A DNA stretch of 36,460 nt from Clostridia bacterium (lineage in GTDB: Bacteria > Bacillota > Clostridia > Oscillospirales > CAG-272), in assembly GCA_017545225.1 (NCBI GenBank), contig JAFWPR010000121.1, forward strand, positions 1-36,460. The letters are read 5' to 3'. This document shows positions 14,202 through 25,413 of this stretch, one piece after another. Position 1 is the first letter of the stretch, and each line of letters opens with the position of its first letter. The notes beneath the pieces were generated by a model. It did not search any database, was not told the origin of the DNA, and was given only the letters and a program-made list of their open reading frames with translations. Made by a program: the position numbers and the translations under genes.

Positions 14202-15482
14202 ACGGACAAGCTGAAAGAAAAGGAAGAGGCTGCTCTTCCCGTCCCCGCGGAAGCGGAGAGCGCCGGCGTTTTTCCGCCGGAGAACGAAGAAGAAGAAACG
14301 GAGACGGTCACGCCGGATACCGAACCGTTCCCGGCCGGCGATCATCCGTCCGACGCGTCGGCCCTCGCGCGTCCCGCTCTGCGGGGCGGGCTCGGCAGAT
14401 ACATATTTCTTTTCGTCTGCGCCGTCCTCGGCGCGTTCGCCGTTTTCGCCGTCGCGGCGGGGCTGGGCGACGCTCTGGGCAGGACGGGTATAACGCTTCC
14501 CTCGCTTCTCTTCGGAGAAGTGGTGAACTCCGGGCTTACCGAGCTGCCGAAAAACGGCGACGGAGTCATTCTGACCGGCCGGGTCAGAGTTCCCGCCGCT
14601 CCTTCCCTGACGGAAGACGGAACGGGCGAGGAGCCCCGCGCTCTTGAAGCGGAAGGCGAGGAAGCGGAGGACGGAGCGATACCGGAGGACGGCGTGACGC
14701 TGCCGATCCGACCGGTCGATCTGTCGGCGGGAGATCCTCTCTCGGTGATAAACGAGACTGGCTTTTCGCCCGACTATGCGGCGATCGCGGAAAAAGAGAG
14801 TGCGATCCCGCCCGCCGCGGATCTGTACGCGGAATACGGCGACGGCGTGCCGCTCGTTCTGATCGTTCACACGCACGGGACGGAGAGTTATTCGCCGGAC
14901 GGCGCAAGCGAGTATTCGTCGGCGGACGCGTTCAGGTCGCTCGATCCGGAAGCGGGAGTCGTCGCCGTCGGGGAGACGGTGAGAGAAGTTCTCGCGGAGC
15001 GCGGGATCGGAGTGATCCACTGTACCTCAATGTTCGACGCCGTCGACTTTTCCTCGGCATACGCATCGTCGGGCGAGACGGCCGCGCGTATTCTGAGGGA
15101 GTATCCGTCTGTGAAATACGTTCTCGACATACACCGCGACGCCCTGATAACGGCGGAGGGGGATAATCTTCGTCCCGTGACTGAAACAGAGGTCGGCTCC
15201 GCCGCGCAGATCATGCTCGTCGTCGGAACGGACGAAGCGGGAGCGGATCACCCGGGGTGGGAGGAGAATCTATCTCTTGCTCTCAAATCGCAGCGGGGAG
15301 TCGCCGCCGTCTGCCCGGGACTGATGAGATCGGTCGACCTGAGGCGCGAGTCGTTCAATCAGCAGCTCGCCCCGGGGTCGCTTCTGATCGAGGCGGGAGC
15401 CGCCGCGAACAGCCTCGACGAGGCGAAACGCGCCGCCGCGATCTTTGCGGGCGTGTTTGCCGATATAATAAAAGGAGAATAA
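14199..15482 (+). CDS. spoIIP: Stage II sporulation protein P (peptidoglycan hydrolase), start codon atypical
   Basis: SpoIIP is a membrane-anchored amidase/endopeptidase that works with SpoIID and SpoIIM to thin septal peptidoglycan during engulfment. Read from the GTT at 14199 it has 427 residues: a charged cytoplasmic N-terminus, a membrane segment (about 69-90, starting RYIFLFVCAVLG) and a linker. The catalytic domain contains IVHTHGTESY (about 226-235), YVLDIHRDAL (near 307-316) and the C-terminal SLLIEAGAAANSLDEAK. The only canonical start is the GTG at 14520, which would remove the anchor and 107 residues. No clear promoter separates it from gpr. A terminator is not obvious before the next promoter at 15515. 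Confidence 0.85.
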   Translation, partial: VTDKLKEKEEAALPVPAEAESAGVFPPENEEEETETVTPDTEPFPAGDHPSDASALARPALRGGLGRYIFLFVCAVLGAFAVFAVAAGLGDALGRTGITLPSLLFGEVVNSGLTELPKNGDGVILTGRVRVPAAPSLTEDGTGEEPRALEAEGEEAEDGAIPEDGVTLPIRPVDLSAGDPLSVINETGFSPDYAAIAEKESAIPPAADLYAEYGDGVPLVLIVHTHGTESYSPDGASEYSSADAFRSLDPEAGVVAVGETVREVLAERGIGVIHCTSMFDAVDFSSAYASSGETAARILREYPSVKYVLDIHRDALITAEGDNLRPVTETEVGSAAQIMLVVGTDEAGADHPGWEENLSLALKSQRGVAAVCPGLMRSVDLRRESFNQQLAPGSLLIEAGAAANSLDEAKRAAAIFAGVFADIIKGE

Positions 15483-15514
15483 GGACGAAAAACGCTTTCA
15501 CGGTCCGAAACCGA

Positions 15515-15543
15515 TTGACACCGGCGGGAATATTTGGTATCAT
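15515..15543 (+). promoter_or_regulatory. Vegetative-type promoter for the nucleoside hydrolase gene
   Basis: TTGACA at 15515-15520 and TATCAT at 15538-15543 are separated by exactly 17 bases. The start codon of the next gene is about 50 bases further on. Confidence 0.8.
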
Positions 15544-15595
15544 ATTTCCGGGGACAGACGTCCCGAATAACGGTATATCACGAAAGGATCGGGAA

Positions 15596-16501
15596 ATGGA
15601 ACTTGAGAGAATACTTGAAGATCTGAAAACGAAAAGAATAAAAAAAGTTATAGTCGATTCCGACACGTTCAACGAGATGGACGACCAATACGCCATCGCG
15701 TACGCCATCGGTTCCGACAAGATGGACGTCGTCGCGCTCAACGCCGCTCCGTTTCACAACGACAGAAGCACGAGCTTCGGCGACGGAATGGAGAAGAGCT
15801 ACGAGGAGATCCTCCGCGTTCTCGATCACGTGGAGAAGGTCGGTCAGTATCCCGTCTACAAGGGTTCTCCGACAAGGATCGACGACGACCCGGAATTCCG
15901 TCCCGTGGACAGCCCCGCAGCGCGCGCGATAATCGACGCCGCTCACAAATACGATGAGATCGTTTACGTTCTCACAACCGGCGCCTGCACGAACGTCGTG
16001 TCCGCCGTGATGCTTGATCCCTCGATCAAAGAAAATATCTGCGTGATATGGCTCGGCGGTCACTGCCTTGACTTCCCGGATCTCGGCGAGTTCAACCTCG
16101 CTCAGGATTACGCCGCGGGTCAGATCCTCATCAACACCGACGTACCGCTCATCCTCCTGCCCGCTTGCGATCACGGCACGTCCGCTCTCGTCGCGCGCCT
16201 TCCCGATATGCAGGGAATTAAAGGCGACTCCCGCGCGTGCGTCTTCTTCAGAGAGACGCTCCCCGAGGAGTTCAACGGCGACTATTACGAGAACGGATGG
16301 GAGAGGGTCATCTGGGATATCGCCGCTCCCGGCGTCATAGCCGTTCCCGAGGCGTACGAATTTTCGATCATTCCCGCCCCGATCTTCGGGGATGACAGAA
16401 CGTACGCGTTCGACAGAACGAGGCATAAGATCATATATATGGATAAGGTGGACCGCGATATCGTCCTGGGCGACACTTTTGCTGCGATCGGGACGCTCTG
16501 A
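15596..16501 (+). CDS. Nucleoside hydrolase (inosine-uridine N-ribohydrolase) family protein
   Basis: Members of this family use a calcium-bound water to cleave the N-glycosidic bond of ribonucleosides. The 301 residues start with the metal-binding block VDSDTFNEMDDQYAIAYAI: Asp21, Asp23, Asp29 and Asp30. The spacing is DxDx5DD rather than the classical DxDx3DD, placing it in the NE(I/M)DD subgroup, whose substrates are poorly known. The EFNLAQDYAAGQILIN block (165-180) matches the conserved ligand-binding segment with Asn167 and Asp171. No signal peptide is seen, so it is probably cytoplasmic. The ATG at 15596 follows AAAGGATCGGG, and the longer open frame upstream overlaps spoIIP. It has its own promoter and terminator, so it is monocistronic. 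Confidence 0.88.
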   Translation: MELERILEDLKTKRIKKVIVDSDTFNEMDDQYAIAYAIGSDKMDVVALNAAPFHNDRSTSFGDGMEKSYEEILRVLDHVEKVGQYPVYKGSPTRIDDDPEFRPVDSPAARAIIDAAHKYDEIVYVLTTGACTNVVSAVMLDPSIKENICVIWLGGHCLDFPDLGEFNLAQDYAAGQILINTDVPLILLPACDHGTSALVARLPDMQGIKGDSRACVFFRETLPEEFNGDYYENGWERVIWDIAAPGVIAVPEAYEFSIIPAPIFGDDRTYAFDRTRHKIIYMDKVDRDIVLGDTFAAIGTL

Positions 16502-16515
16502 CACACGTTCTTCAA

Positions 16516-16545
16516 ACCGCCCGCGTGATGTGCGGGCGGTTTTTT
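16516..16545 (+). terminator. Intrinsic terminator after the nucleoside hydrolase gene
   Basis: ACCGCCCGC (16516-16524) pairs perfectly with GCGGGCGGT (16532-16540) around a seven-base loop, followed by a run of T. Confidence 0.92.
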
Positions 16546-16623
16546 CGTGCAGAAAAAAACGAATTTTTAACAACAGTTAACAAAAAAGAGAAGAGTTACA
16601 TTCTTTAAATCGTCGAAAAGCAG

Positions 16624-16652
16624 TTGACACGGAAAAAACGTTGTGGTATAAT
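16624..16652 (+). promoter_or_regulatory. Consensus promoter of the surface-assembly operon
   Basis: TTGACA (16624-16629) and TATAAT (16647-16652) are perfect sigma-A hexamers at the optimal 17-base spacing. Transcription would begin near 16659, giving a leader of about 105 bases. The sequence from 16546 to 16623 is AT-rich and shows nothing else clear. Confidence 0.92.
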
Positions 16653-16718
16653 CTGTAGGTGTATCGGTATGCCCATTTGAGTTTTTTAGCGGAAATTACT
16701 CTTATCTGATAACGTCTG

Positions 16719-16745
16719 CGCTTCGTCCTTTTCGAAGACGGAGCG
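16719..16745 (+). other. Hairpin in the leader of the surface-assembly operon
   Basis: CGCTTCGTC (16719-16727) pairs with GACGGAGCG (16737-16745), including one G-U pair, around a nine-base loop. It ends five bases before the GGAGG ribosome binding site (16750-16754) of the first gene. It resembles no riboswitch class that I know, and no T-run follows. Confidence 0.45.
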
Positions 16746-16763
16746 AGACGGAGGAGCGTAGTT

Positions 16764-17594
16764 TTGGACAGAAACCTGAAAAAAGAGGACATAAACGCCA
16801 TAAGCGGCGTAAAAGAAATAGATATATTCAGGATCCTCGGCGCTTTCTTAAGGCATATTTGGATTATCGCCCTCGTGGCTGTCCTTTGTGCCGCCATCGC
16901 GTTTGCTTACGCGTATTTCTTTATTACGCCGACGTATCAGTCGAGCACGATGCTGTACGTCAATAACGGATCGCTTTCTATCGGAAAATCTTTCAGCATA
17001 TCGGACCTTAACGCATCCAAGAATCTTGTGGATACTTATATCGTCATTCTGAAATCGCGAACGACCCTTGAGGCGGTCGCCGAGAGAGCGGAACTTAATA
17101 TGTCGTACAGTTCGCTCTCCCGTAAGGTTTCCGCCGCCGCCGTCAACGCGACCGAGGTGCTGCGCGTGACGGTTACGGACACCGATCCCGAGAGGGCGAC
17201 GCTTATCGCCAACGCGATAGGTGAGGTCCTCCCCGAGAGAGTTCAGACGATCATCGGAGGAAGCAAGGTCGAAGTCGTCGACAGCGCGGTGATTCCGTCC
17301 TCGAAATCAGCTCCGAGTTTCACGAGATACACGATGATCGGTTTCGTCATCGGACTGGTCGCGACGCTGGCGGTCATCGTAGTGATAGAGCTTCTGGACG
17401 ATCAGGTGAGAGACGAATCGTTCCTCACGCAGAGCTTCAATCTGCCGGTGCTGGCGTCGATCCCCGATCTCAACGCGAACGTGAGCGGAAAGGCATACAA
17501 GTACGGCAAGTACGGAAGCGCCAAGTACGGATACCGAAGAGGATCGTACTACGCCGGCGCATCGAAGGAGGGGACGGCAAATGGCGACAAATAG
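16764..17594 (+). CDS. Wzz/CapA-type chain-length regulator and tyrosine-kinase activator
   Basis: This is a polysaccharide co-polymerase (YwqC/CapA type) that sets chain length and activates the partner kinase. The 276 residues begin at a TTG preceded by GGAGG nine bases upstream. Two membrane segments (about 32-54 and 192-210) flank an extracellular domain. A Pro/Ser-rich stretch comes just before the second segment, as in the family. After it a cytoplasmic tail (211-277) contains QVRDE followed by a tyrosine-rich stretch at 244-264 with seven tyrosines, KYGKYG repeated. Such a Tyr tail is normally on the kinase, and here the neighbouring kinase has one as well. The gene overlaps the kinase gene by 14 bases. 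Confidence 0.93.
   Translation: MDRNLKKEDINAISGVKEIDIFRILGAFLRHIWIIALVAVLCAAIAFAYAYFFITPTYQSSTMLYVNNGSLSIGKSFSISDLNASKNLVDTYIVILKSRTTLEAVAERAELNMSYSSLSRKVSAAAVNATEVLRVTVTDTDPERATLIANAIGEVLPERVQTIIGGSKVEVVDSAVIPSSKSAPSFTRYTMIGFVIGLVATLAVIVVIELLDDQVRDESFLTQSFNLPVLASIPDLNANVSGKAYKYGKYGSAKYGYRRGSYYAGASKEGTANGDK
17499..17531 (+). repeat. Three copies of a 9-base KYG-coding repeat in the Wzz-type gene
   Basis: AAGTACGGN occurs at 17499-17507 and 17508-17516 in tandem and again at 17523-17531 after a six-base spacer. The same unit is repeated in the next gene at 18283-18318. Confidence 0.85.
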
Positions 17595-18390
17595 AAACGC
17601 AGCGCCGGGCACCCCCGATAACGTCGAAAAGGCCGTATTCGGCAAGAACCTCGGTTTTGCCGCGTCGGAAGCCTACAGGCTCCTCAGAACCAACATTATG
17701 TTTTCTCTCCCGACCGATGCGGAACACAAATGCCGCGTGATCGGTCTCACGAGCGCGAACGCCGGAGAGGGCAAGAGTACCACGGCGCTCAACCTCGCGT
17801 ATATGCTCGCCGAGGCGCATCAGCAGACGATCCTCGTCGAGGCGGACATGCGCCTGCCCACGATATCGAAAAGGCTCGGACTCAAGCAGTCCCCCGGTCT
17901 CTCGAACGTGCTGGTCGGACTGACGTCCAAAGTTATCGCTCAGCCCTCGGGCATCGAGGATTATCTGAAGGTCATCACGTCGGGAGATATCCCGCCGAAC
18001 CCGTCCGAACTCCTCGGATCGGCAAAGATGAAGACGTTGGTCGACGTTCTGTCGAAAAACGCGGATTTCATTGTTATCGACCTTCCTCCCATCAACGAGG
18101 TCGCCGACGCGCTCGTCGTGTCGCAGTTCGTCGACGGGATGCTCATGATCGTCAGACACAATTACGCGAGCCGCCACGCCGTCATCGACGCGATGAAGCA
18201 GCTTGATCACGCCAACGCGAAAGTCCTCGGTTTCGTCGTCACCGGCTCTGAGAACTTCATCAAGGGCAAATATAAATACAAGAAATACGGTAAGTACGGC
18301 AAGTACGGTAAGTACGGTCGAAGCCATAATTACGGTTACGCACAGGCGGTAGCCGAAGAGAATCCGGGACAGGTGGATATCGAGATATGA
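17581..18390 (+). CDS. Bacterial tyrosine kinase (CpsD/CapB/YwqD family)
   Basis: BY-kinases autophosphorylate on a C-terminal tyrosine cluster and control capsule or exopolysaccharide synthesis together with the Wzz-type partner. The 269 residues carry Walker A SANAGEGKST (58-67), Walker A' ILVEADMR (84-91) and Walker B FIVIDLPP (163-170). The tail at 231-253 has eight tyrosines, mostly as KYG units encoded by four tandem 9-base repeats. The ATG lies inside the end of the previous gene, and the TGA overlaps the next ATG (ATGA), so all three products are translationally coupled. Confidence 0.95.
   Translation: MATNRNAAPGTPDNVEKAVFGKNLGFAASEAYRLLRTNIMFSLPTDAEHKCRVIGLTSANAGEGKSTTALNLAYMLAEAHQQTILVEADMRLPTISKRLGLKQSPGLSNVLVGLTSKVIAQPSGIEDYLKVITSGDIPPNPSELLGSAKMKTLVDVLSKNADFIVIDLPPINEVADALVVSQFVDGMLMIVRHNYASRHAVIDAMKQLDHANAKVLGFVVTGSENFIKGKYKYKKYGKYGKYGKYGRSHNYGYAQAVAEENPGQVDIEI
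18283..18318 (+). repeat. Four tandem 9-base repeats encoding (KYG)4
   Basis: Units AAATACGGT, AAGTACGGC, AAGTACGGT and AAGTACGGT run head to tail from 18283 to 18318. Gain or loss of a unit would stay in frame and change the number of phosphorylatable tyrosines in the kinase tail. Confidence 0.9.
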
Positions 18391-19097
18391 TAGATTTTCA
18401 TTCTCATGTTCTGCCGGGGATCGACGACGGCAGCCGTGATACGGATGAAAGTCTCAAACTTCTGAAGATGTGCTCCGAACAGGGAGTCACAACAATTGCG
18501 GCAACCCCTCATTTTTATCCCGATTACGACACGCCCGAGAGATTTCTGAGGCGGCGGAACGAAGCGGCTCTTCATTTGAAGGAACGCCTTTTCGACGGTG
18601 CGCCGGAAATCGTACTTGGCGCGGAGGTCTATTATTTCGCAGGCATCAGTTCGAACGACGCCGTCGGAAGTCTCCGCCTCGGAGACACCGGCATCCTTCT
18701 GCTTGAAATGCCGTTCGCAAAGTGGTCCCCTTCAATGGTGTCCGAGATACTCGATCTTCACGGAAGAAACGGTATCTCCGTGATGCTGGCTCACATAGAG
18801 CGTTATATCGACTATCAGAGTCCGGACGTCTGGGATTCTCTTCTGAAACACGGCGTCATAATGCAGTCCAACGCCGGGTTCTTCACGAATCGGTGGACGA
18901 GAAGGCGCGCGCTCAAACTGCTCCGGTCCGGCAGGATCCACGTTCTCGGTTCCGACTGTCACAACGTCAAAGACAGGCCGGAGAACATAGGTAAGGCCCT
19001 CGCGGTCATGAACGGCCGGGACAGAGAGTACCTTCGGGATAATGAAGAGTACATAATCAGGATCGGCGTGAAAGAGCACGCCGCAGTCACCCCGTAA
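18387..19097 (+). CDS. PHP-type protein tyrosine phosphatase (CpsB/CapC/YwqE family)
   Basis: This metal-dependent phosphatase removes phosphate from the BY-kinase tail. The 236 residues begin MIDFHSHVLPGIDDGS, the PHP family signature (His5, His7, Asp13/14). Further metal-ligand motifs are TPHF (His42), LGAE (Glu80), LEMP (Glu108), AHIERY (His136) and SDCHN (Asp190, His192). The full set suggests an active enzyme. Its start overlaps the kinase stop as ATGA. Confidence 0.95.
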   Translation: MIDFHSHVLPGIDDGSRDTDESLKLLKMCSEQGVTTIAATPHFYPDYDTPERFLRRRNEAALHLKERLFDGAPEIVLGAEVYYFAGISSNDAVGSLRLGDTGILLLEMPFAKWSPSMVSEILDLHGRNGISVMLAHIERYIDYQSPDVWDSLLKHGVIMQSNAGFFTNRWTRRRALKLLRSGRIHVLGSDCHNVKDRPENIGKALAVMNGRDREYLRDNEEYIIRIGVKEHAAVTP

Positions 19098-19111
19098 ATT
19101 TGCTGTCGCAT

Positions 19112-19132
19112 CCGCGCGGCTCAGCCGCACGG
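19112..19132 (+). other. Hairpin upstream of the sortase-substrate gene
   Basis: CCGCGCGGC (19112-19120) pairs with GCCGCACGG (19124-19132) around a TCA loop, with one C-A mismatch. It lies between the phosphatase stop and the next ribosome binding site, with no T-run. I see no convincing promoter in 19098-19165, so it is more likely an RNA-processing or stability element. Confidence 0.45.
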
Positions 19133-19165
19133 TTTGAGATAGAATCTTGAAGAAAGGAGGAAAAT

Positions 19166-19813
19166 ATGATGAAGAGATTCATTACGGTCGCTATCGCGAT
19201 TCTCCTCGTAGCTCTTATGGTTGCTCCTGCTTTTGCAGCTGAGAAGTCTCCCGGAGGACTCCCGACGGTTCCCACGAAGAACGATCTCCCGGATCCCAAA
19301 GCAGAAGATTCTGAGGACCGTTATTTCGTCGAGGACGAAAAAGAGATCTATGTGAGAGCTGAGGACTACACCGGTGAACTCGCTTATTTCCCCGAGGACG
19401 AAGCTCCCGTGAAATATGAGCTGATCAAGAAGTTCGATCCCTGGACCAAGGGCAAAGACGGTGACGCTCTGTTTGCTTCCAATGCGCCTTTCGAAAAGTT
19501 CGATTCCGTACTTATCGATAAGAACGTCGTTGATGCAGCGAACTACACCGCAGCTTCCGGATCTACCGAGGTTACGTTCACCAAGGCTTACATGGAGACC
19601 CTCTCCGTCGGTGAGCACGAGATCGTCATCAAGTCGACTGACGGTTTCGCAAAGGGCACGTTCAAGGTTCTTGAACTCGCTCCTTCCGAGACTCCCAGAA
19701 CCGGAGACAGCTCCAACACCTTTATGTGGGTTGCCATCAGCCTCGTTTCTCTCGGCGCGATCGGCGTAGTCGCGTTTGCGCTTGCTAAGAAACGTAAGTC
19801 TGCTGAGAACTGA
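19166..19813 (+). CDS. Small secreted cell-wall protein with a TPRTG sorting signal, probable sortase B substrate
   Basis: The 215-residue protein begins with a signal peptide (MMKRFITVAIAILLVALM, probable cleavage after AFA near 24). A mature region of about 150 residues, rich in Asp, Glu, Lys and Pro, follows; it matches no family that I recognise. The C-terminus is a cell-wall sorting signal: TPRTGD (176-181), a hydrophobic segment (185-207) and the basic tail KKRK. The motif fits the (S/P/N)PxTG type used by clostridial class B sortases, and such a sortase is the next gene. AAAGGAGG lies just before the ATG; Met2 is also possible. Codon choice differs from its neighbours (many GCT, GTT, GAG, AAG), suggesting high expression. 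Confidence 0.85.
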   Translation: MMKRFITVAIAILLVALMVAPAFAAEKSPGGLPTVPTKNDLPDPKAEDSEDRYFVEDEKEIYVRAEDYTGELAYFPEDEAPVKYELIKKFDPWTKGKDGDALFASNAPFEKFDSVLIDKNVVDAANYTAASGSTEVTFTKAYMETLSVGEHEIVIKSTDGFAKGTFKVLELAPSETPRTGDSSNTFMWVAISLVSLGAIGVVAFALAKKRKSAEN

Positions 19814-19819
19814 CCAAAC

Positions 19820-19877
19820 GTTTTGAGGTGAGCTCGACTCAAAACCGCTTGGAACCCGCGGGCGCAAGCCCGCGGGT
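19820..19877 (+). other. Two consecutive hairpins between the substrate and the sortase
   Basis: The first stem is GTTTTGAG (19820-19827) with CTCAAAAC (19838-19845). The second is a perfect ten-pair stem, ACCCGCGGGC (19854-19863) with GCCCGCGGGT (19868-19877), closed by a GCAA tetraloop of the GNRA type. Neither is followed by a T-run, so full termination is unlikely. They probably stabilise the upstream mRNA or partly attenuate transcription into the sortase gene. Confidence 0.7.
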
Positions 19878-19907
19878 CCCACTAAGGTTTACCTCAAGGT
19901 GATAACG

Positions 19908-20756
19908 TTGAAAAAAAGAAAAATAATATTAACGATTTTACTCGTTTTTCTTGTGTCGGTTTTTGGTATCTCGACCTTTTTTGTTATAAGGGACGTTTAC
20001 AGGTCGAAGACGGAGGACGCGGCCAACCGCGAACTGTCTTCCATCGTCAACGATCTGAAAGACGACGCCCGCAGACACAGGTCCCGAAACGACGGTACCG
20101 ACGAAACGGAGGGAGAGACCGGCAACGGGGAAGAAGACGAAGATCCTTACACGGAGGACGGTATTCTCAAATACCTTGCCCCGATATACGAACAGAACAG
20201 CGACCTTGCCGGATGGCTGACTATTCCCGGAACTACGATCGATTATCCGGTGATGTACACTCCCGAATATATCCAGAAATATCTCAGGATGGCTTTCGAC
20301 GGGGAGTGGGCGTTGTCCGGTTCTCTTTTTCTCGGAGAGGGCTGGAGCGAAGACAACAATTATGCGATCATTTACGGACACCATATGCAGGACGGTTCGA
20401 TGTTCTGCAATCTCGTCGATTACGAGTCTCTTGAGTTCGCGAAAGAGCACCCGATCGTCGAGTTCGACACGCTGAGGGAGATGGGAGACTATGAAGTCAT
20501 GTGCGCCTGCCTTACGCAGGTGACGGGCGACCCGTCGGCGTTCCATTATTATGAATATACGGATCTTCGCGATCCTGAAATATTTGCGGAGTTTTTTGAA
20601 GGAGTCGGAACCGAAGCGCTGTACTTCACGGACGTCAAAGCCGAGTACGGCGACCGGATCCTGGTCCTGTCGACATGCAACTATCATACCGACAACGGAA
20701 GGTTCTACCTCGTCGCCGTAATGAAGGCGGAACCCACTGAGGGCGGAACCGAGTAA
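19908..20756 (+). CDS. srtB: Class B sortase
   Basis: Sortases are membrane transpeptidases that cut between Thr and Gly of a sorting motif and join the protein to the cell wall. The 282 residues have a basic N-terminus, a membrane anchor (about 6-27), a charged linker rich in Glu and Asp (about 35-85) and the catalytic domain. YGHHM holds the catalytic histidine (His158), LSTCNYHTDNGRF gives Cys257 and Arg265, and LAGWLTIPGTTIDYPV is the typical N-terminal strand block. I chose the TTG at 19908, after AAGGTGAT; the GTG at 19899 lies within that site. Placed directly after a protein with a matching signal, it is probably dedicated to it. Confidence 0.93.
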   Translation: MKKRKIILTILLVFLVSVFGISTFFVIRDVYRSKTEDAANRELSSIVNDLKDDARRHRSRNDGTDETEGETGNGEEDEDPYTEDGILKYLAPIYEQNSDLAGWLTIPGTTIDYPVMYTPEYIQKYLRMAFDGEWALSGSLFLGEGWSEDNNYAIIYGHHMQDGSMFCNLVDYESLEFAKEHPIVEFDTLREMGDYEVMCACLTQVTGDPSAFHYYEYTDLRDPEIFAEFFEGVGTEALYFTDVKAEYGDRILVLSTCNYHTDNGRFYLVAVMKAEPTEGGTE

Positions 20757-20791
20757 TCGTCGTCCTGACGGACGGCTGAAAGGAGAAACGC

Positions 20792-20811
20792 CCGGGAACG
20801 GAGATTCCCGG
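20792..20811 (+). other. Hairpin between a strong ribosome-binding sequence and the LCP gene start
   Basis: CCGGGAA (20792-20798) and TTCCCGG (20805-20811) form a seven-pair stem. A good Shine-Dalgarno-like AAAGGAG lies just upstream (about 20779-20785), but the first in-frame ATG is at 20825, beyond the hairpin, with only a weak GACGAG next to it. The stem could modulate translation of the LCP gene. Confidence 0.45.
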
Positions 20812-20824
20812 ACGAGTTCCGATC

Positions 20825-21865
20825 ATGGGATATCAGAGAACGCCGAGAGGACACGGCGTTACGGGCGGAAGTCCACGCAGCAGGATCATAGCGCTGGGGC
20901 GCATATTGTCTGTCGTCCTCATCGTAGCGGGCCTTTTTCTGCTCGTTATGGCGATAGAGAAGGCGAGAGACGACAGAAGCCCGGTCGATAACGCCGGTCA
21001 GGCCGTCGAACTTCCTGATGAAAAGAGATCGACGACCGAGTATAAGGGCTCGACGTATATGTTGAAAAAGAAACTCGAGACGACGCTCGTTATCGGCATT
21101 GACACGTTTGAAGAGAATGTGGAAGAGGGTGACCCCACCAACGTTCATCAGGCGGATCTGCTTTACTTGATCGTCACTGATAAGACGAACAACACGTATA
21201 AAACGATCCACATAAACAGGGACACCATGACGAAGATCAAGATCCTCACCACGAGCGGAAAGACGCTGAGAGAAGAGGAAAAACAGATCGCCCTGGCGTA
21301 CTCGTACGGCGCGACGTACCCGATCCAGTGCAGGAACACGGTCGACGCGGTAAGCACGCTTTTTAACGGTATAAGGATAGATCATTATATTTCCGTCACG
21401 ATGGACAGTGTCGCCGTCCTCAACGACTCGGTCGGCGGTATCACGCTCGAAATCATGGACGACATTGACGAAATGAAGGCGGGAGAGTACTTGACCCTCA
21501 CCGGAGATCAGGCGCTGAGATACGTCAGAGCGAGAAGATCGGTCGAATCCAATCCGACGAATCTCCGCCGTATGGAACGCCAGACTCAATATATCGACGA
21601 GTTCCGCCGTCAGTTTGCTCAAAAAGCTGCCGCGAGCGATTCGTTCACTCTTGAGGCCCTGACCGAGATCAGCGAATACATGCACTCCGACTGTATGATC
21701 GAGGAACTTGCCGACATCGTTAACACGGTCCTGACGTATGAATATCTCGGAGACAACAAACTCGAAGGCGAGGCCGTATCGGACGGTACGTACATAGAAT
21801 TCCGCGCGGATCCCGACAAACTGGCAGAACTATATCTCAGCGTATTCTGCGACAAGATCGACTGA
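20825..21865 (+). CDS. LytR-CpsA-Psr (LCP) family glycopolymer ligase
   Basis: LCP proteins transfer lipid-linked polysaccharides or teichoic acids to peptidoglycan or, in some lineages, to proteins. The 346 residues have a basic cytoplasmic N-terminus, one membrane segment (about 24-44) and an extracellular LCP domain. LVIGID (88-93), ADLLYLIVTD (110-119), HINRDTM (129-135, with Arg132 and Asp133), NDSVGG (200-205), GDQALRYVRAR (227-237) and NLRRMERQTQYI (246-257) are the standard blocks, including the arginines that contact the polyprenyl phosphate. It follows the sortase by 68 bases, within the same apparent transcript. Confidence 0.92.
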   Translation: MGYQRTPRGHGVTGGSPRSRIIALGRILSVVLIVAGLFLLVMAIEKARDDRSPVDNAGQAVELPDEKRSTTEYKGSTYMLKKKLETTLVIGIDTFEENVEEGDPTNVHQADLLYLIVTDKTNNTYKTIHINRDTMTKIKILTTSGKTLREEEKQIALAYSYGATYPIQCRNTVDAVSTLFNGIRIDHYISVTMDSVAVLNDSVGGITLEIMDDIDEMKAGEYLTLTGDQALRYVRARRSVESNPTNLRRMERQTQYIDEFRRQFAQKAAASDSFTLEALTEISEYMHSDCMIEELADIVNTVLTYEYLGDNKLEGEAVSDGTYIEFRADPDKLAELYLSVFCDKID

Positions 21866-21920
21866 TATAGGGCGATTATCCCGAACGATGCGCGGACAGC
21901 GCAACAACGAAGGAGCAGTT

Positions 21921-23054
21921 ATGGACAGCGAAGTGACATGCAAACTCCTCAAGATCGGCGAAGCGTTCAACATTGAGGGGCCGCTCTTCTCCTACGAAGA
22001 GTTGAATATGGGCAATATTAACCGCACGTATAAAGTGAACTATATCAGAGACGACGGGACGGGGCTTGCAAAGCTGAAGCCGTTTCTCTTTCAGAGAGTC
22101 AACACCTACGCGTTCAAAAATCCCGTGCAGCTTATGGAGAATATCGACAGAGTCACGGAATATATCAGGGAAAAGCGGCCGGACAGCGTGAACCTCCACT
22201 TCCACCACACGGGGACGGGCGAAGACCGCAGGACGTATCTGTTCGACGGAGACGAATTCTGGAGAGTCTGCAACTACGTTCCGTCCGTGACGTTTATGAC
22301 CTGCGACGACCTGAACATCATCAGAAACGCGGGTAAAGCGTTCGGCGATTTCCAGACGGTCCTTGCAGATTTCGACCCGGCGCAGCTTTATTACACGATC
22401 CCCGATTTTCACGACACGAGAAAGAGATACGAAAAACTCGAGCGCGATATCGCGGCGGATCCGTGCGGCAGGGTCGCCGGGGTGAAAGACGAGATCGACT
22501 ACATCCTTTCCGTAAAGGACAAGGCGTGTCTTCTCACAGATCTTTTCAACGAAGGAAAACTTCCGCTCCGCGTCACCCACAACGATACGAAGATAAACAA
22601 CGTTCTCTTCGACGAGGAGACGCACGACGCGCTTGTCGTCATCGACCTTGATACCGTTATGCCGGGCATCGTGGGCAGCGATTTCGGAGACGCGATTCGT
22701 TTCGCCGCCAACTACACGGAAGAGGACAGCCGCGACACGTCGAAGACGGGTATTGACCTGAACGTGTTCTGGGCGTTTGCGGAGGGTTTCCTCTCCGAGA
22801 CTGCCGACGCACTCACCGATCTCGAGATCGATACGCTCGCCGCCAGCTGTTTCTCGCTCACATGCGAGCTCGTCACTCGATTCCTGGACGACTATATCGA
22901 CGGCGACAGATACTTCAAGATCAACTCCCCCGATCACAACCTCGTCAGAACGCGATGTCAGATCGCCCTCGCACGCGATATGGAGCGCAAGATGGAGGCG
23001 ATGGACGCGATCGTCAGGGGCTGCGTGGCGAAGTACAGAAACGCGTCGAAATAA
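21921..23054 (+). CDS. Aminoglycoside-phosphotransferase-fold sugar kinase, N-acetylhexosamine 1-kinase-like
   Basis: The 377-residue cytoplasmic protein has the phosphotransferase core THNDTKINNVLFD (219-231), where Asp222 is the probable base and Asn226/227 a metal ligand, followed by VIDLDTVMPG (240-249) with the metal-binding Asp. These blocks and the N-terminal NMGNINRTYKV match NahK-type kinases, which make GlcNAc- or GalNAc-1-phosphate from free sugars in bifidobacteria. The start at 21921 follows AAGGAG; the frame opens 11 residues earlier. As the last gene of the surface operon it may feed activated amino sugars into polymer synthesis, but substrate assignment is inference. Confidence 0.82.
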   Translation: MDSEVTCKLLKIGEAFNIEGPLFSYEELNMGNINRTYKVNYIRDDGTGLAKLKPFLFQRVNTYAFKNPVQLMENIDRVTEYIREKRPDSVNLHFHHTGTGEDRRTYLFDGDEFWRVCNYVPSVTFMTCDDLNIIRNAGKAFGDFQTVLADFDPAQLYYTIPDFHDTRKRYEKLERDIAADPCGRVAGVKDEIDYILSVKDKACLLTDLFNEGKLPLRVTHNDTKINNVLFDEETHDALVVIDLDTVMPGIVGSDFGDAIRFAANYTEEDSRDTSKTGIDLNVFWAFAEGFLSETADALTDLEIDTLAASCFSLTCELVTRFLDDYIDGDRYFKINSPDHNLVRTRCQIALARDMERKMEAMDAIVRGCVAKYRNASK

Positions 23055-23070
23055 AGAAAAACGAACGATA

Positions 23071-23105
23071 AAAGCAAGCGCTTAAAAGCGTTTGCTTTCT
23101 TTTTT
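23071..23105 (+). terminator. Intrinsic terminator of the surface-assembly operon
   Basis: AAAGCAAGCGCT (23071-23082) pairs with AGCGTTTGCTTT (23087-23098), with one G-U pair and a TAAA loop, followed by a run of T. It lies 16 bases after the kinase gene. Confidence 0.9.
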
Positions 23106-23167
23106 CGGGCGGCGCGGGACAATCACGAAAAAAAGCCGAAAAAACGGGTCGATTATGTCTCAACGTC

Positions 23168-23195
23168 TTGATTTTTTTTCCGTGAGTGATATACT
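23168..23195 (+). promoter_or_regulatory. Promoter for the leucine-rich-repeat lipoprotein
   Basis: TTGATT (23168-23173) and TATACT (23190-23195) are separated by 16 bases. The gene starts about 75 bases downstream. Confidence 0.65.
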
Positions 23196-23270
23196 GTTTA
23201 AGGGCGGTGACGGACGGAGTTCCGGACGGCACGACCGCGGAGAAACTGAGAAAGGGGACGGGAACGAAAC

Positions 23271-24836
23271 GTGAAGAAATCGATCGGAAAACCGAATATT
23301 CTTCTTTTGCTGTTCCTGTCGGCAGCCTTTCTTTTATCCGCTCTCGTTTCCTGCTCGGAAAGGACCGGGCGGGAAGCCGAGACCGTGCCCCGTACGGAAG
23401 ACGGGGACCTTATCGTTTACGGGAAAGAGTATCCGCCCGATACGGCGATCCTGTCGTTCACGGGCGATGAGATAGACGGCGTCGACGGGCTCATAACCGT
23501 TTTGTCGGCGTTCCCGGATCTCGAATTCGTCGACCTCGGAACGTTCCCGGTCAGCATGGAGGACGCTGAGAGGATAAGATCGGCCGCGGGCGGTATCGAC
23601 CTGAAGTGCAGGATCTGCGAGACGCTTTACGGCAAACCGTTCTTTGCCGAGGATGAGGTCATCGACCTCAGCGGGGCGGGTATCACGGACACCGCGGAGC
23701 TTGAGCATACGCTCCGGTATCTGCCGAACGCCCGGCTCGTGAGCTGTCCGGACGGCGTCGTTTCGATAGAAGCAAAAAAACGGCTCAGGGAAGAATACCC
23801 GCACGTTGAGTTCGACATCCCGGCTCTTGCCGATGTATTCGGCGCGCAGGTGAGGGACGACGTCACTTCGCTTGATCTGAGGAGCGCTTCCGCCGGGGCG
23901 GATCTTGCCTCGGTGATCGAAATATTCCCCGACCTTGAGTCGGTCGATCTTCACGGCGTCGCCCTTTCCGCCGCAGAGCAGGACGCGCTATCCGCGCGCT
24001 TCCCGAACGTCCGGTTTTTGTGGGAGGTCGATATCAGGGGAGAAAAATACGACTCCGCGACGGACGACCTCGATCTGTCCGGCACGTACGGTCTGACGCC
24101 GGACGACGTCCGCGAGATCATCCCGAAATTCCACGGACTGAAACGGCTCGATCTGTCCGACTGCGGTATGGACAACGAGACGCTCGCCGCTCTTCGCGAC
24201 GAGTTTCCCGACACGAAGATCGTCTGGACGCTCTATATGGGCAAGTGGTCGCTGAAGACGGACGCGGTCGCGTTCTCGGTCCTCATTTACAACTATAACT
24301 ACACGCGTCTCAGAAACGAGGATATCGAGGTCCTGAAATACTGTACCGATCTGCAGGCGCTCGACCTCGGCCATCAGGCGCTGACCGATATCACGGCGAT
24401 CGCCGAGTACTGTCCCGAGCTCCGCATCCTCATCCTTGCGGACAACTCGCTGCGCGATATCGAGCCGGTCAGGAAGCTGAAGCATCTGCACTATATCGAG
24501 CTGTTCGTGAACCCGTATCTCAACGACATCACGCCGCTCGAGGACTGCAAGGAACTCGTCGACGTGAACGTGAGCCATCTGTACACGATCCACGATATCC
24601 ACGGTCTGCTCGATCTGCCGATCCTCGAGAGGCTCTGGATCGAGCACACGGCGACCACGCAGGCAGATATACAGCTTTTGAGAGACACGTACCCGAACGC
24701 CGAAGTCGTCGATCAGGGTTACGGTTCGGTCGACCAGGGATGGCGCACGCACCCGCGGTACTTCGCGATGATAAACATGTATTTTGATACAACCTACATC
24801 AGCGAAGAGTTTTCAAAATACGACGGTGCCGATTAA
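23271..24836 (+). CDS. Leucine-rich-repeat lipoprotein
   Basis: The 521-residue protein begins at a GTG (MKKSIGKPN) and has a lipoprotein signal peptide ending in LVSC, so Cys28 is the likely lipidated residue and the protein sits on the outer face of the membrane. From about residue 55 to 480 it consists of degenerate leucine-rich repeats with recurring LDLS, VDLG, FVDL and LEFVDL strands, separated by Pro- and Asp-rich loops (FPDL, FPNV, YPNAEVV). The last repeats resemble the bacterial LxxLxxLxL type. Bound ligand is unknown; LRR lipoproteins often bind proteins or glycans. It is monocistronic, with its own promoter and terminator. Confidence 0.85.
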   Translation: MKKSIGKPNILLLLFLSAAFLLSALVSCSERTGREAETVPRTEDGDLIVYGKEYPPDTAILSFTGDEIDGVDGLITVLSAFPDLEFVDLGTFPVSMEDAERIRSAAGGIDLKCRICETLYGKPFFAEDEVIDLSGAGITDTAELEHTLRYLPNARLVSCPDGVVSIEAKKRLREEYPHVEFDIPALADVFGAQVRDDVTSLDLRSASAGADLASVIEIFPDLESVDLHGVALSAAEQDALSARFPNVRFLWEVDIRGEKYDSATDDLDLSGTYGLTPDDVREIIPKFHGLKRLDLSDCGMDNETLAALRDEFPDTKIVWTLYMGKWSLKTDAVAFSVLIYNYNYTRLRNEDIEVLKYCTDLQALDLGHQALTDITAIAEYCPELRILILADNSLRDIEPVRKLKHLHYIELFVNPYLNDITPLEDCKELVDVNVSHLYTIHDIHGLLDLPILERLWIEHTATTQADIQLLRDTYPNAEVVDQGYGSVDQGWRTHPRYFAMINMYFDTTYISEEFSKYDGAD

Positions 24837-24842
24837 AGAACG

Positions 24843-24871
24843 AAACGCCCGATCTTGAAGATCGGGCGTTT
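24843..24871. terminator. Bidirectional intrinsic terminator
   Basis: AAACGCCCGATC (24843-24854) pairs perfectly with GATCGGGCGTTT (24860-24871) around TTGAA, with T following on the plus strand and A-rich sequence before it. It ends the lipoprotein gene and the convergent minus-strand operon. Confidence 0.92.
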
Positions 24872-24873
24872 TT

Positions 24874-25413
24874 CTACTGAATATATGCCGATTCCGTTTT
24901 TCTGAACGCGGAGACGATGCGAGTCGAGGCGGAGTAGACGAGCGAGACGCCGAACAGGATCTCGAGCGCCGACTCGTTTCTTATGAACGCGATACACGCG
25001 ATCCCGAGCATGATTTTGACGGCGCCGCGCGCGATCCTGAGTTTCCAGCGCGAAGAACGGAGGTATTTAGCCTCGCGCGCCATGAGAATGTCGACGATGC
25101 CGGAGAACATGAATACGCCGATCAGGTAGATCGATACGATGAACGACGACGCGTCGTACAGCGAAAGGGAAAAGAGGCCGAAGTCGAACATTATCACGCC
25201 GCGGAAGAGGATCAGCCTTCCTCCGACCATGAACCGCGCCATGGAGAAATAACGTACTATATCCTTGACGCCGGACGCCGCGAACGTGAAGCTGAGGATC
25301 AGAAGGATCACAAGCAGTCCGTTTTCCGTGCCCGGAAGAGCAAAAATGAGCGCCGCCGCGAGAAGCTGGAGCAGGCCGAGAAGGATCACGCTTATCCGTT
25401 GGAATTTACTCAT
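24874..25413 (-). CDS. DUF308/HdeD-like multi-pass membrane protein
   Basis: The 179 residues form about six hydrophobic segments arranged as short paired helices, with the pattern SFTFAASGVKDIVRYF and GVFMFSGIVDILMA that is typical of DUF308 (HdeD-like) proteins. The function of the family is not settled. The start MSKFQRIS at 25413 follows AAAGGAGG nine bases upstream and overlaps the previous gene by eight bases. It is the last gene of a five-gene unit. Confidence 0.72.
   Translation of the reverse strand: MSKFQRISVILLGLLQLLAAALIFALPGTENGLLVILLILSFTFAASGVKDIVRYFSMARFMVGGRLILFRGVIMFDFGLFSLSLYDASSFIVSIYLIGVFMFSGIVDILMAREAKYLRSSRWKLRIARGAVKIMLGIACIAFIRNESALEILFGVSLVYSASTRIVSAFRKTESAYIQ

Follow-up and report, generated by a model that had tools for sequence, protein, structure and literature searches.

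In streptococci, the CpsA, CpsB, CpsC and CpsD set brings an LCP (LytR-CpsA-Psr) enzyme, a Wzz protein, a bacterial tyrosine kinase (BY-kinase) and a PHP phosphatase together in one capsule locus. To our knowledge, this set includes neither an anchored small protein nor a sortase. The streptococcal capsule is joined to peptidoglycan. The operon described here adds a small protein and a sortase to the capsule-control genes. It occupies positions 16764-23054 of a 36,460-nucleotide stretch from a Clostridia bacterium (GenBank assembly GCA_017545225.1, contig JAFWPR010000121.1), which we call the window. Seven tightly spaced genes, all on the + strand, encode Wzz, BY-kinase, PHP phosphatase (together, the triad), a small TPRTG protein (SUB), a sortase, an LCP enzyme and a NahK-like kinase. 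The window is the whole of its source contig in a 2.33-Mb genome that is 86.6% complete, and the closest named relatives by LCP search are Clostridia metagenome-assembled genomes from the rumen and omasum of goats and sheep.

The nearest functional parallel comes from Mediterraneibacter gnavus. According to the accessible part of a 2026 study (PMC13121745), the class B sortase gene srtB4 clusters with LCP and kinase/phosphatase genes in this species, and in srtB4 mutants the capsule halo is gone, along with most of the acid polysaccharide; complementation restores it. Mutants in LCP, phosphatase, glycosyltransferase and nucleotide-sugar genes are also capsule-defective, and the capsule governs gut colonisation by M. 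gnavus. The authors regard the sortase as an unlikely direct capsule maker and point to candidate targets near the sortase genes, which they do not identify; that part of the study offers no reason for the sortase requirement. The srtB4 cluster (RGna_12030-12060) resembles our operon in uniting a sortase (class B there and probably here), an LCP enzyme and a BY-kinase/phosphatase pair. As judged from gene descriptions, it differs in adjoining sugar and glycosyltransferase genes, of which none were found near the operon of the window.

A second parallel is Actinomyces oris, in which LcpA attaches glycan to the sortase substrate GspA (PMC6381275, as far as accessible), a case that the available sections of a review of LCP enzymes term so far unique (PMC7831098). 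In A. oris the LCP gene adjoins the gene of a sortase-anchored protein, and the likeness is judged from gene arrangement. A. oris is an actinobacterium that uses a housekeeping SrtA and an actinobacterial LcpA with a disulfide, and the accessible texts do not mention a CpsBCD triad. Many relatives encode an anchored small protein close to LCP; in the window's own genus the motif is canonical in only two of four species, and the sortase gene lies between the SUB and LCP genes.

Similarly, SrtB of Clostridioides difficile is a class B sortase that recognises SPxTG/PPxTG signals on (S/P)PxTG substrates; the window sortase is like it by structure match, and the accessible part of that paper mentions no link to a capsule triad (PMC4371152). 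The available text of a 2025 review of capsule attachment (PMC12220298) places cps2A in the capsule locus, and the word sortase is absent from the review. In the titles and abstract openings of openly licensed PMC papers we found no description of the small-protein family introduced below as X, nor of its linkage to LCP.

The recurring core in relatives

Twelve genomes of the window's genus were searched, the source genome included. Orthologues of BY-kinase, SUB, sortase, LCP and NahK are syntenic in four of them (the window, G001, G003 and G007), and a further member (G004) has a version made up of Wzz, kinase, sortase, an 81-residue APQTG protein, LCP, phosphatase and a CapD-like gene. For a wider comparison we used 80 named loci, the best of 173, brought in by LCP alignment. 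A triad gene lies no more than 5 kb upstream of LCP in 76 of these, and all three triad genes do so in 67; in the remaining four loci, no more than 600 bases separate LCP from the start of the sequence examined.

By rule, a gene for a small secreted protein of the type that we call X accompanies 75 of the 76 triad-bearing loci. Of these 75, 72 are clear, three of them (L071-L073) being of SUB type; the other three are doubtful, namely L091, which is truncated, and L107 and L144, which have an unclear tail. Wzz and kinase are present in L148 and the X gene is absent. A sortase is found in 27 of the 76 triad-bearing loci and missing from 49. Strong X matches (E ≤ 9e-19) in 98 relatives adjoin the cluster LCP in 12 of 12 cases, a partly circular result, given that the alignment behind the search (A4) has at least two genomes in common with those relatives.

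Other families of the order have this core of Wzz, kinase, phosphatase, X and LCP as well, as does the family of Coprococcus catus (L127; Lachnospiraceae by NCBI), and a sortase may or may not accompany it. In that family, LCP enzymes of this subfamily were detected at E ≤ 1e-30 in 71 of 250 genomes, and we examined 40 loci among the best-scoring of 78 listed matches. Gene order is reshuffled there. Of the 25 loci that have a sortase, 21 encode an X-type or anchored small protein no further than 2.6 kb from LCP, but only five of the 15 without a sortase do. In four relatives scanned with Pfam (L034, L041, L042 and L046), polysaccharide genes follow 3' of LCP, namely CapD-like, priming transferase, glycosyltransferase and aminotransferase genes.

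The recurring core is therefore the triad, a small secreted and usually C-terminally anchored X, and LCP. The initial annotation had proposed a fixed, self-contained set of seven genes, and this is not supported: the complete seven were found only in the window's genus, and, the triad aside, LCP is most often accompanied by the small protein. Of the co-occurrence that the annotation suggested looking for, a part is borne out, in that both the order and Lachnospiraceae repeatedly combine triad, small secreted protein, sortase and LCP. It could be argued that the sortase pair and the kinase are merely co-housed by chance in a capsule-control operon, as operon gene sets can mix and the full order was found in one genus only. 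We consider this very improbable, because triad, X, LCP and often sortase are linked again and again in the order and in another family, and NahK-like kinases stand beside such clusters in five further loci.

There is also a second arrangement (L043, L047, L048 and L050), in which a sortase gene abuts a more distant LCP gene and no triad gene was detected in the stretch examined. This suggests that coupling of sortase and LCP exists outside capsule control too.

The small protein as a candidate polymer carrier

We read the core as a module for the control and display of a capsule (surface polysaccharide), in which the LCP enzyme would load polymer onto, or next to, an anchored small protein held at the surface. 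That this is a capsule module is well supported; the small protein would be its acceptor, and for the reading as a whole we would give slightly less than even chances. The triad would set polymer length and export via phosphotyrosine cycling, as CpsBCD does elsewhere. LCP would take lipid-linked polymer and most likely transfer it to SUB or X, probably near the mature N-terminus, and the C-terminus of that protein would keep both at the surface, either through a class B sortase that joins it to peptidoglycan or, failing that, through a transmembrane tail. Polymer would come from a Wzx/Wzy locus on another contig (C81), and NahK would feed in hexosamine 1-phosphate.

The X proteins themselves are mostly about 195-305 residues long and carry a signal peptide; compared with family models they gave no consistent match. 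The counts that follow use 69 of the 72 X genes that a gap rule picked out in named loci (the three doubtful ones are left out, and L071-L073 carry SUB instead). A C-terminal hydrophobic segment is present in 61 of the 69, and Ser31 (L111 numbering, approximately residue 8 of the mature protein) is conserved in 65; it is invariant in the 40 X proteins that were hand-picked from the 69 for alignment A4. SP or PS occurs within 15 residues of the predicted cleavage site in 81 of 101 X proteins versus 28 of 249 heuristic control open reading frames (from 1522), although the X proteins are related to one another. Cleavage was predicted by a home-made rule, successfully in 101 of 109 X proteins (L033 and L036, which duplicate L115 and L130, were omitted, as were L107 and L144).

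For the X protein of L111 (9183-9848), the predicted model (predicted local distance difference test, pLDDT, 89) has a helical hairpin and a ZU5/GAIN-like sandwich. Structural matches are weak, the top one being to the GAIN/HormR structure of BAI3 (E 0.008). The smallest versions of the protein, recognised by position and anchor and not by homology, have 71-86 residues, barely more than signal peptide, linker and anchor, which is the size to be expected of a tether.

Sorting motif and sortase are associated. Among the Lachnospiraceae loci, a small protein with a PxT[GNSA] anchor lies near LCP in 18 of 25 with a sortase and in none of 15 without (Fisher p 6e-6, kinship ignored). Of the named loci, 15 of 22 with a cluster sortase show PxTG, as opposed to 18 of 47 without (p 0.04, kinship again ignored), and the pattern SP[QA]T, picked post hoc, occurs in 16 of 22 as opposed to six of 47. 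Loci with PxTG and no cluster sortase may use a sortase encoded elsewhere. In G027, where no sortase match was found, X ends in a plain transmembrane tail.

Another possibility is that LCP ligates the polymer straight to peptidoglycan, the small protein being an accessory (for example polymer-binding or scaffold) that organises or retains the capsule at the wall and the sortase fixing only that protein. We think this rather doubtful, though a serious contender. Proteins of 71-86 residues are too small for a binding domain, and the sortase would not be expected to be essential, yet srtB4 is needed for the M. gnavus capsule (PMC13121745, accessible part). In its favour, the capsule LCP enzymes in the available text of the 2025 review use a peptidoglycan acceptor (PMC12220298).

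That last point is one of several that weigh against a carrier role. Ser is common at N-termini of this kind, so that the conserved residue may be structural, and the sortase-less loci with PxTG just mentioned loosen the tie between motif and enzyme. X is not universal: it is missing from L052 and L053, where triad and LCP are present, and undetectable in ten of the 15 sortase-less Lachnospiraceae loci, so LCP can act without X. A covalent glycan link to any X is something that we infer. Finally, SUB fits less neatly than X. Its motif departs from the canonical form (NHQTG, PKTDD) in two of four species although the sortase is apparently intact, profile comparison shows no relationship between its domain and X (probability 0.2%), and it appears to be the functional counterpart of X by position only, with no likeness beyond signal peptide and anchor.

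SUB (19166-19813) is predicted to be a small secreted protein with a signal peptide, an Ig-like domain (about residues 82-171), TPRTGD, a hydrophobic segment and a KKRK tail, preceded by a strong ribosome-binding sequence, AAAGGAGG; it is the candidate polymer acceptor or anchor of the window. The predicted model has a pLDDT of 77 overall and of >90 across most of residues 31-170. We call the anchor because signal peptide, PxTG, hydrophobic segment and KKRK can be read in the sequence; both anchor models score it below their cut-offs (13.6 vs 20 and 14.0 vs 15.9). Across the four orthologues in the genus, identity falls as low as 61% and the motif reads TPRTG, TPTTG, NHQTG or PKTDD; because it is non-canonical in two of the four, it is uncertain whether the sortase processes SUB itself. 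Unlike X in the relatives, SUB precedes the sortase gene, which sits between SUB and LCP. Since SUB carries an Ig-like domain and, signal peptide and anchor aside, has no recognisable kinship with X, this genus appears to have swapped the carrier domain.

The small protein might, alternatively, work outside the cytoplasm with the Wzz-kinase complex (or with LCP), as a partner in assembly or sensing that adjusts polymer length, the anchor serving only for proximity. In its favour, X in the named loci is linked with the triad no less tightly than with LCP, and the hydrophobic tail is retained in 41 of the 47 without a cluster sortase. We nevertheless consider it improbable: despite the reshuffling in Lachnospiraceae, the X-type gene has stayed within 2.6 kb of LCP in those 21 of 25 sortase-bearing loci, and freely differing domains would be odd in a partner that docks on a conserved complex.

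A carrier role accounts best for the phenotype in M. gnavus, for the existence of very small versions of X and for the exchange of domains. The initial annotation had suggested that the secreted protein is an anchor or acceptor; this has become its best-supported idea, and it fits the capsule phenotype of sortase and LCP mutants in M. gnavus. The recurrent pair of X and LCP is in our opinion the most valuable result, as a small anchored protein beside LCP gives a concrete and testable answer to the puzzle of why M. gnavus should need a sortase for its capsule. Should X be an acceptor, the linking of polymers to protein would be widespread among bacteria of gut and rumen. A more specific generalisation, in which many gut and rumen Clostridia would build protein-linked capsules by transfer, through a dedicated LCP enzyme of the INRDTM subfamily, to a Ser close to the N-terminus of a small dedicated carrier that is then fixed by a class B sortase or a membrane tail, is possible, and we hold it more tentatively. 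If true, it would add a route by which Gram-positive bacteria hold their capsule, besides direct ligation to peptidoglycan, with a freely exchangeable carrier domain.

Enzymes of the operon and the probable source of the polymer

Profile scans covered ten genes of the window (14520-24836). The Wzz/CpsC-type polysaccharide co-polymerase and kinase activator (16764-17594) has a TTG start and a Tyr-rich C-tail, KYGKYGSAKYGYRRGSYY, and matches PF02706 with 77.9 bits (cut-off 25.5). It is followed by a CpsD/CapB-type BY-kinase with a (KYG)n tail (17581-18390; TIGR01007 164 bits, cut-off 108; CapA-CapB structure 4jlv, E 4e-33) and a CpsB/CapC-type PHP phosphotyrosine phosphatase (18387-19097; PF19567 119.5 bits, cut-off 27; YwqE and CpsB structures match). 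As in CpsBCD systems, a Wzz-type activator, a Tyr-tailed BY-kinase and a PHP phosphatase thus share one operon, and their genes overlap one another.

Tyr-rich tails are common in the Wzz proteins of relatives: 60 of 70 from X-bearing named loci have at least three Tyr in the last 35 residues, and mean Tyr content is 12.5% in the tails versus 4.3% in the body (73 Wzz proteins). Lachnospiraceae tails differ, with 0-2 Tyr in 23 of 26. Wzd of Lacticaseibacillus rhamnosus is a Wzz-type modulator known to be Tyr-phosphorylated (PMC4340800, as far as accessible).

The sortase (19899-20756), probably of class B, has the conserved His, Cys and Arg (GHHMQDG, LSTCNYHTDNGR), and its catalytic residues are intact in all four genus orthologues. 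The general Pfam model gives 29.5 (cut-off 26.6) and the NCBIfam class B model TIGR03064 127.5 bits, which is below its cut-off of 153.75; the best PDB matches are SrtB structures (E 5e-24), C. difficile 4ux7 and 5gyj among them. The LCP-family glycopolymer transferase of the INRDTM subfamily (20825-21865) scores 73 bits against PF03816 (cut-off 24.6) and matches TagU/TagV/TagT structures. Its residues N131, R132, D133, R249 and R252 are invariant in 17 of 17 aligned sequences.

The last gene (21888-23054) encodes a NahK-like N-acetylhexosamine 1-kinase of APH fold, which a phmmer search aligns to N-acetylhexosamine 1-kinase structures over residues 20-377 of 388 (E 8e-75). A second NahK homologue is present on contig C86 of the source genome, and in relatives such kinases are mostly unlinked to the cluster. 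The five loci outside the genus in which one is near it (among 162 loci) compare with about one expected in 2.4 Mb, and in four of them (L135, L163, L062 and L069) the kinase is on the same strand and directly beside Wzz or BY-kinase. Because the linked loci exceed chance expectation, there is support for a NahK-like kinase as a recurrent precursor-supply gene beside such clusters, as far as gene neighbourhood can tell; its inclusion by the initial annotation holds, as that of a rarer yet recurrent neighbour. In L163 (4508-6136), the NahK-like match lies within a 542-residue frame that overlaps the Wzz gene, a possible kinase-enzyme fusion.

No glycosyltransferase, polymerase or flippase was found among the ten scanned genes of the window, and the initial annotation had noted none in the rest of it. 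The priming phosphoglycosyltransferase model PF02397 has a single match in the source genome, on contig C81, where Bac_transf is accompanied by three glycosyltransferases, two acyltransferase-type genes, Wzy_C, a flippase and a nucleotidyltransferase-sugar kinase fusion. This unlinked Wzx/Wzy locus is the probable maker of the polymer, in agreement with the earlier proposal that the polymer comes from elsewhere. A BY-kinase search of the source genome gave three matches, of which the window's own is the one listed and the others are worse than 4e-5. Since the window triad holds the only clear BY-kinase found in this 86.6% complete genome, it would be the obvious partner of the C81 locus. An alanine racemase gene also lies within that locus (L151 11232-12455).

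Transcription signals and an RNA element

A sigma-70-type promoter, TTGACA-17-TATAAT with TG ahead of the -10, lies at 16624-16652 and matches the consensus at 12 of 12 positions. It ranks first of nine promoter-like sites in 15000-25000 (shuffled sequence gives 5.4), and its hexamers, TTGACA and TGGTATAAT, are unchanged across four aligned operon-bearing species. Promoter-like matches inside the operon are weak only. By sequence scan, an intrinsic-terminator-like hairpin with a T-run follows at 23071-23098. The layout given by the initial annotation, with a single consensus promoter, none seen internally, one terminator and seven co-oriented, closely spaced genes beginning with an overlapping triad, stands up in all these respects; what it had overlooked is a conserved two-hairpin element between SUB and the sortase.

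This element (19820-19881) consists of two predicted RNA hairpins, GUUUUGAG-loop-CUCAAAAC and then a GC-rich stem. The 90-nucleotide stretch that contains it folds better than shuffled sequence (z -4.4), and mean column identity in the four species is 90%, too uniform for a covariation test. The 24-nucleotide core of the first hairpin is invariant, and with up to three mismatches it occurs in only four of 98 genomes, which are the four with the operon. The loops of the second hairpin are of GNRA type in three of the four species (GCAA, GAAA and GUAA). A terminator is less likely because there is no U-tract; likelier is a stabiliser or processing element that would raise the mRNA of the carrier over that of the enzymes.

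The leader of SUB (19095-19168) is also conserved across the four species, with AGATAGAAT and then AAGAAAGGAGGA; it has a strong ribosome-binding site and possibly a processing site or promoter. Directly past the operon terminator, at 23271-24836, is the gene of a leucine-rich-repeat protein, a neighbour that G001 and G003 have as well.

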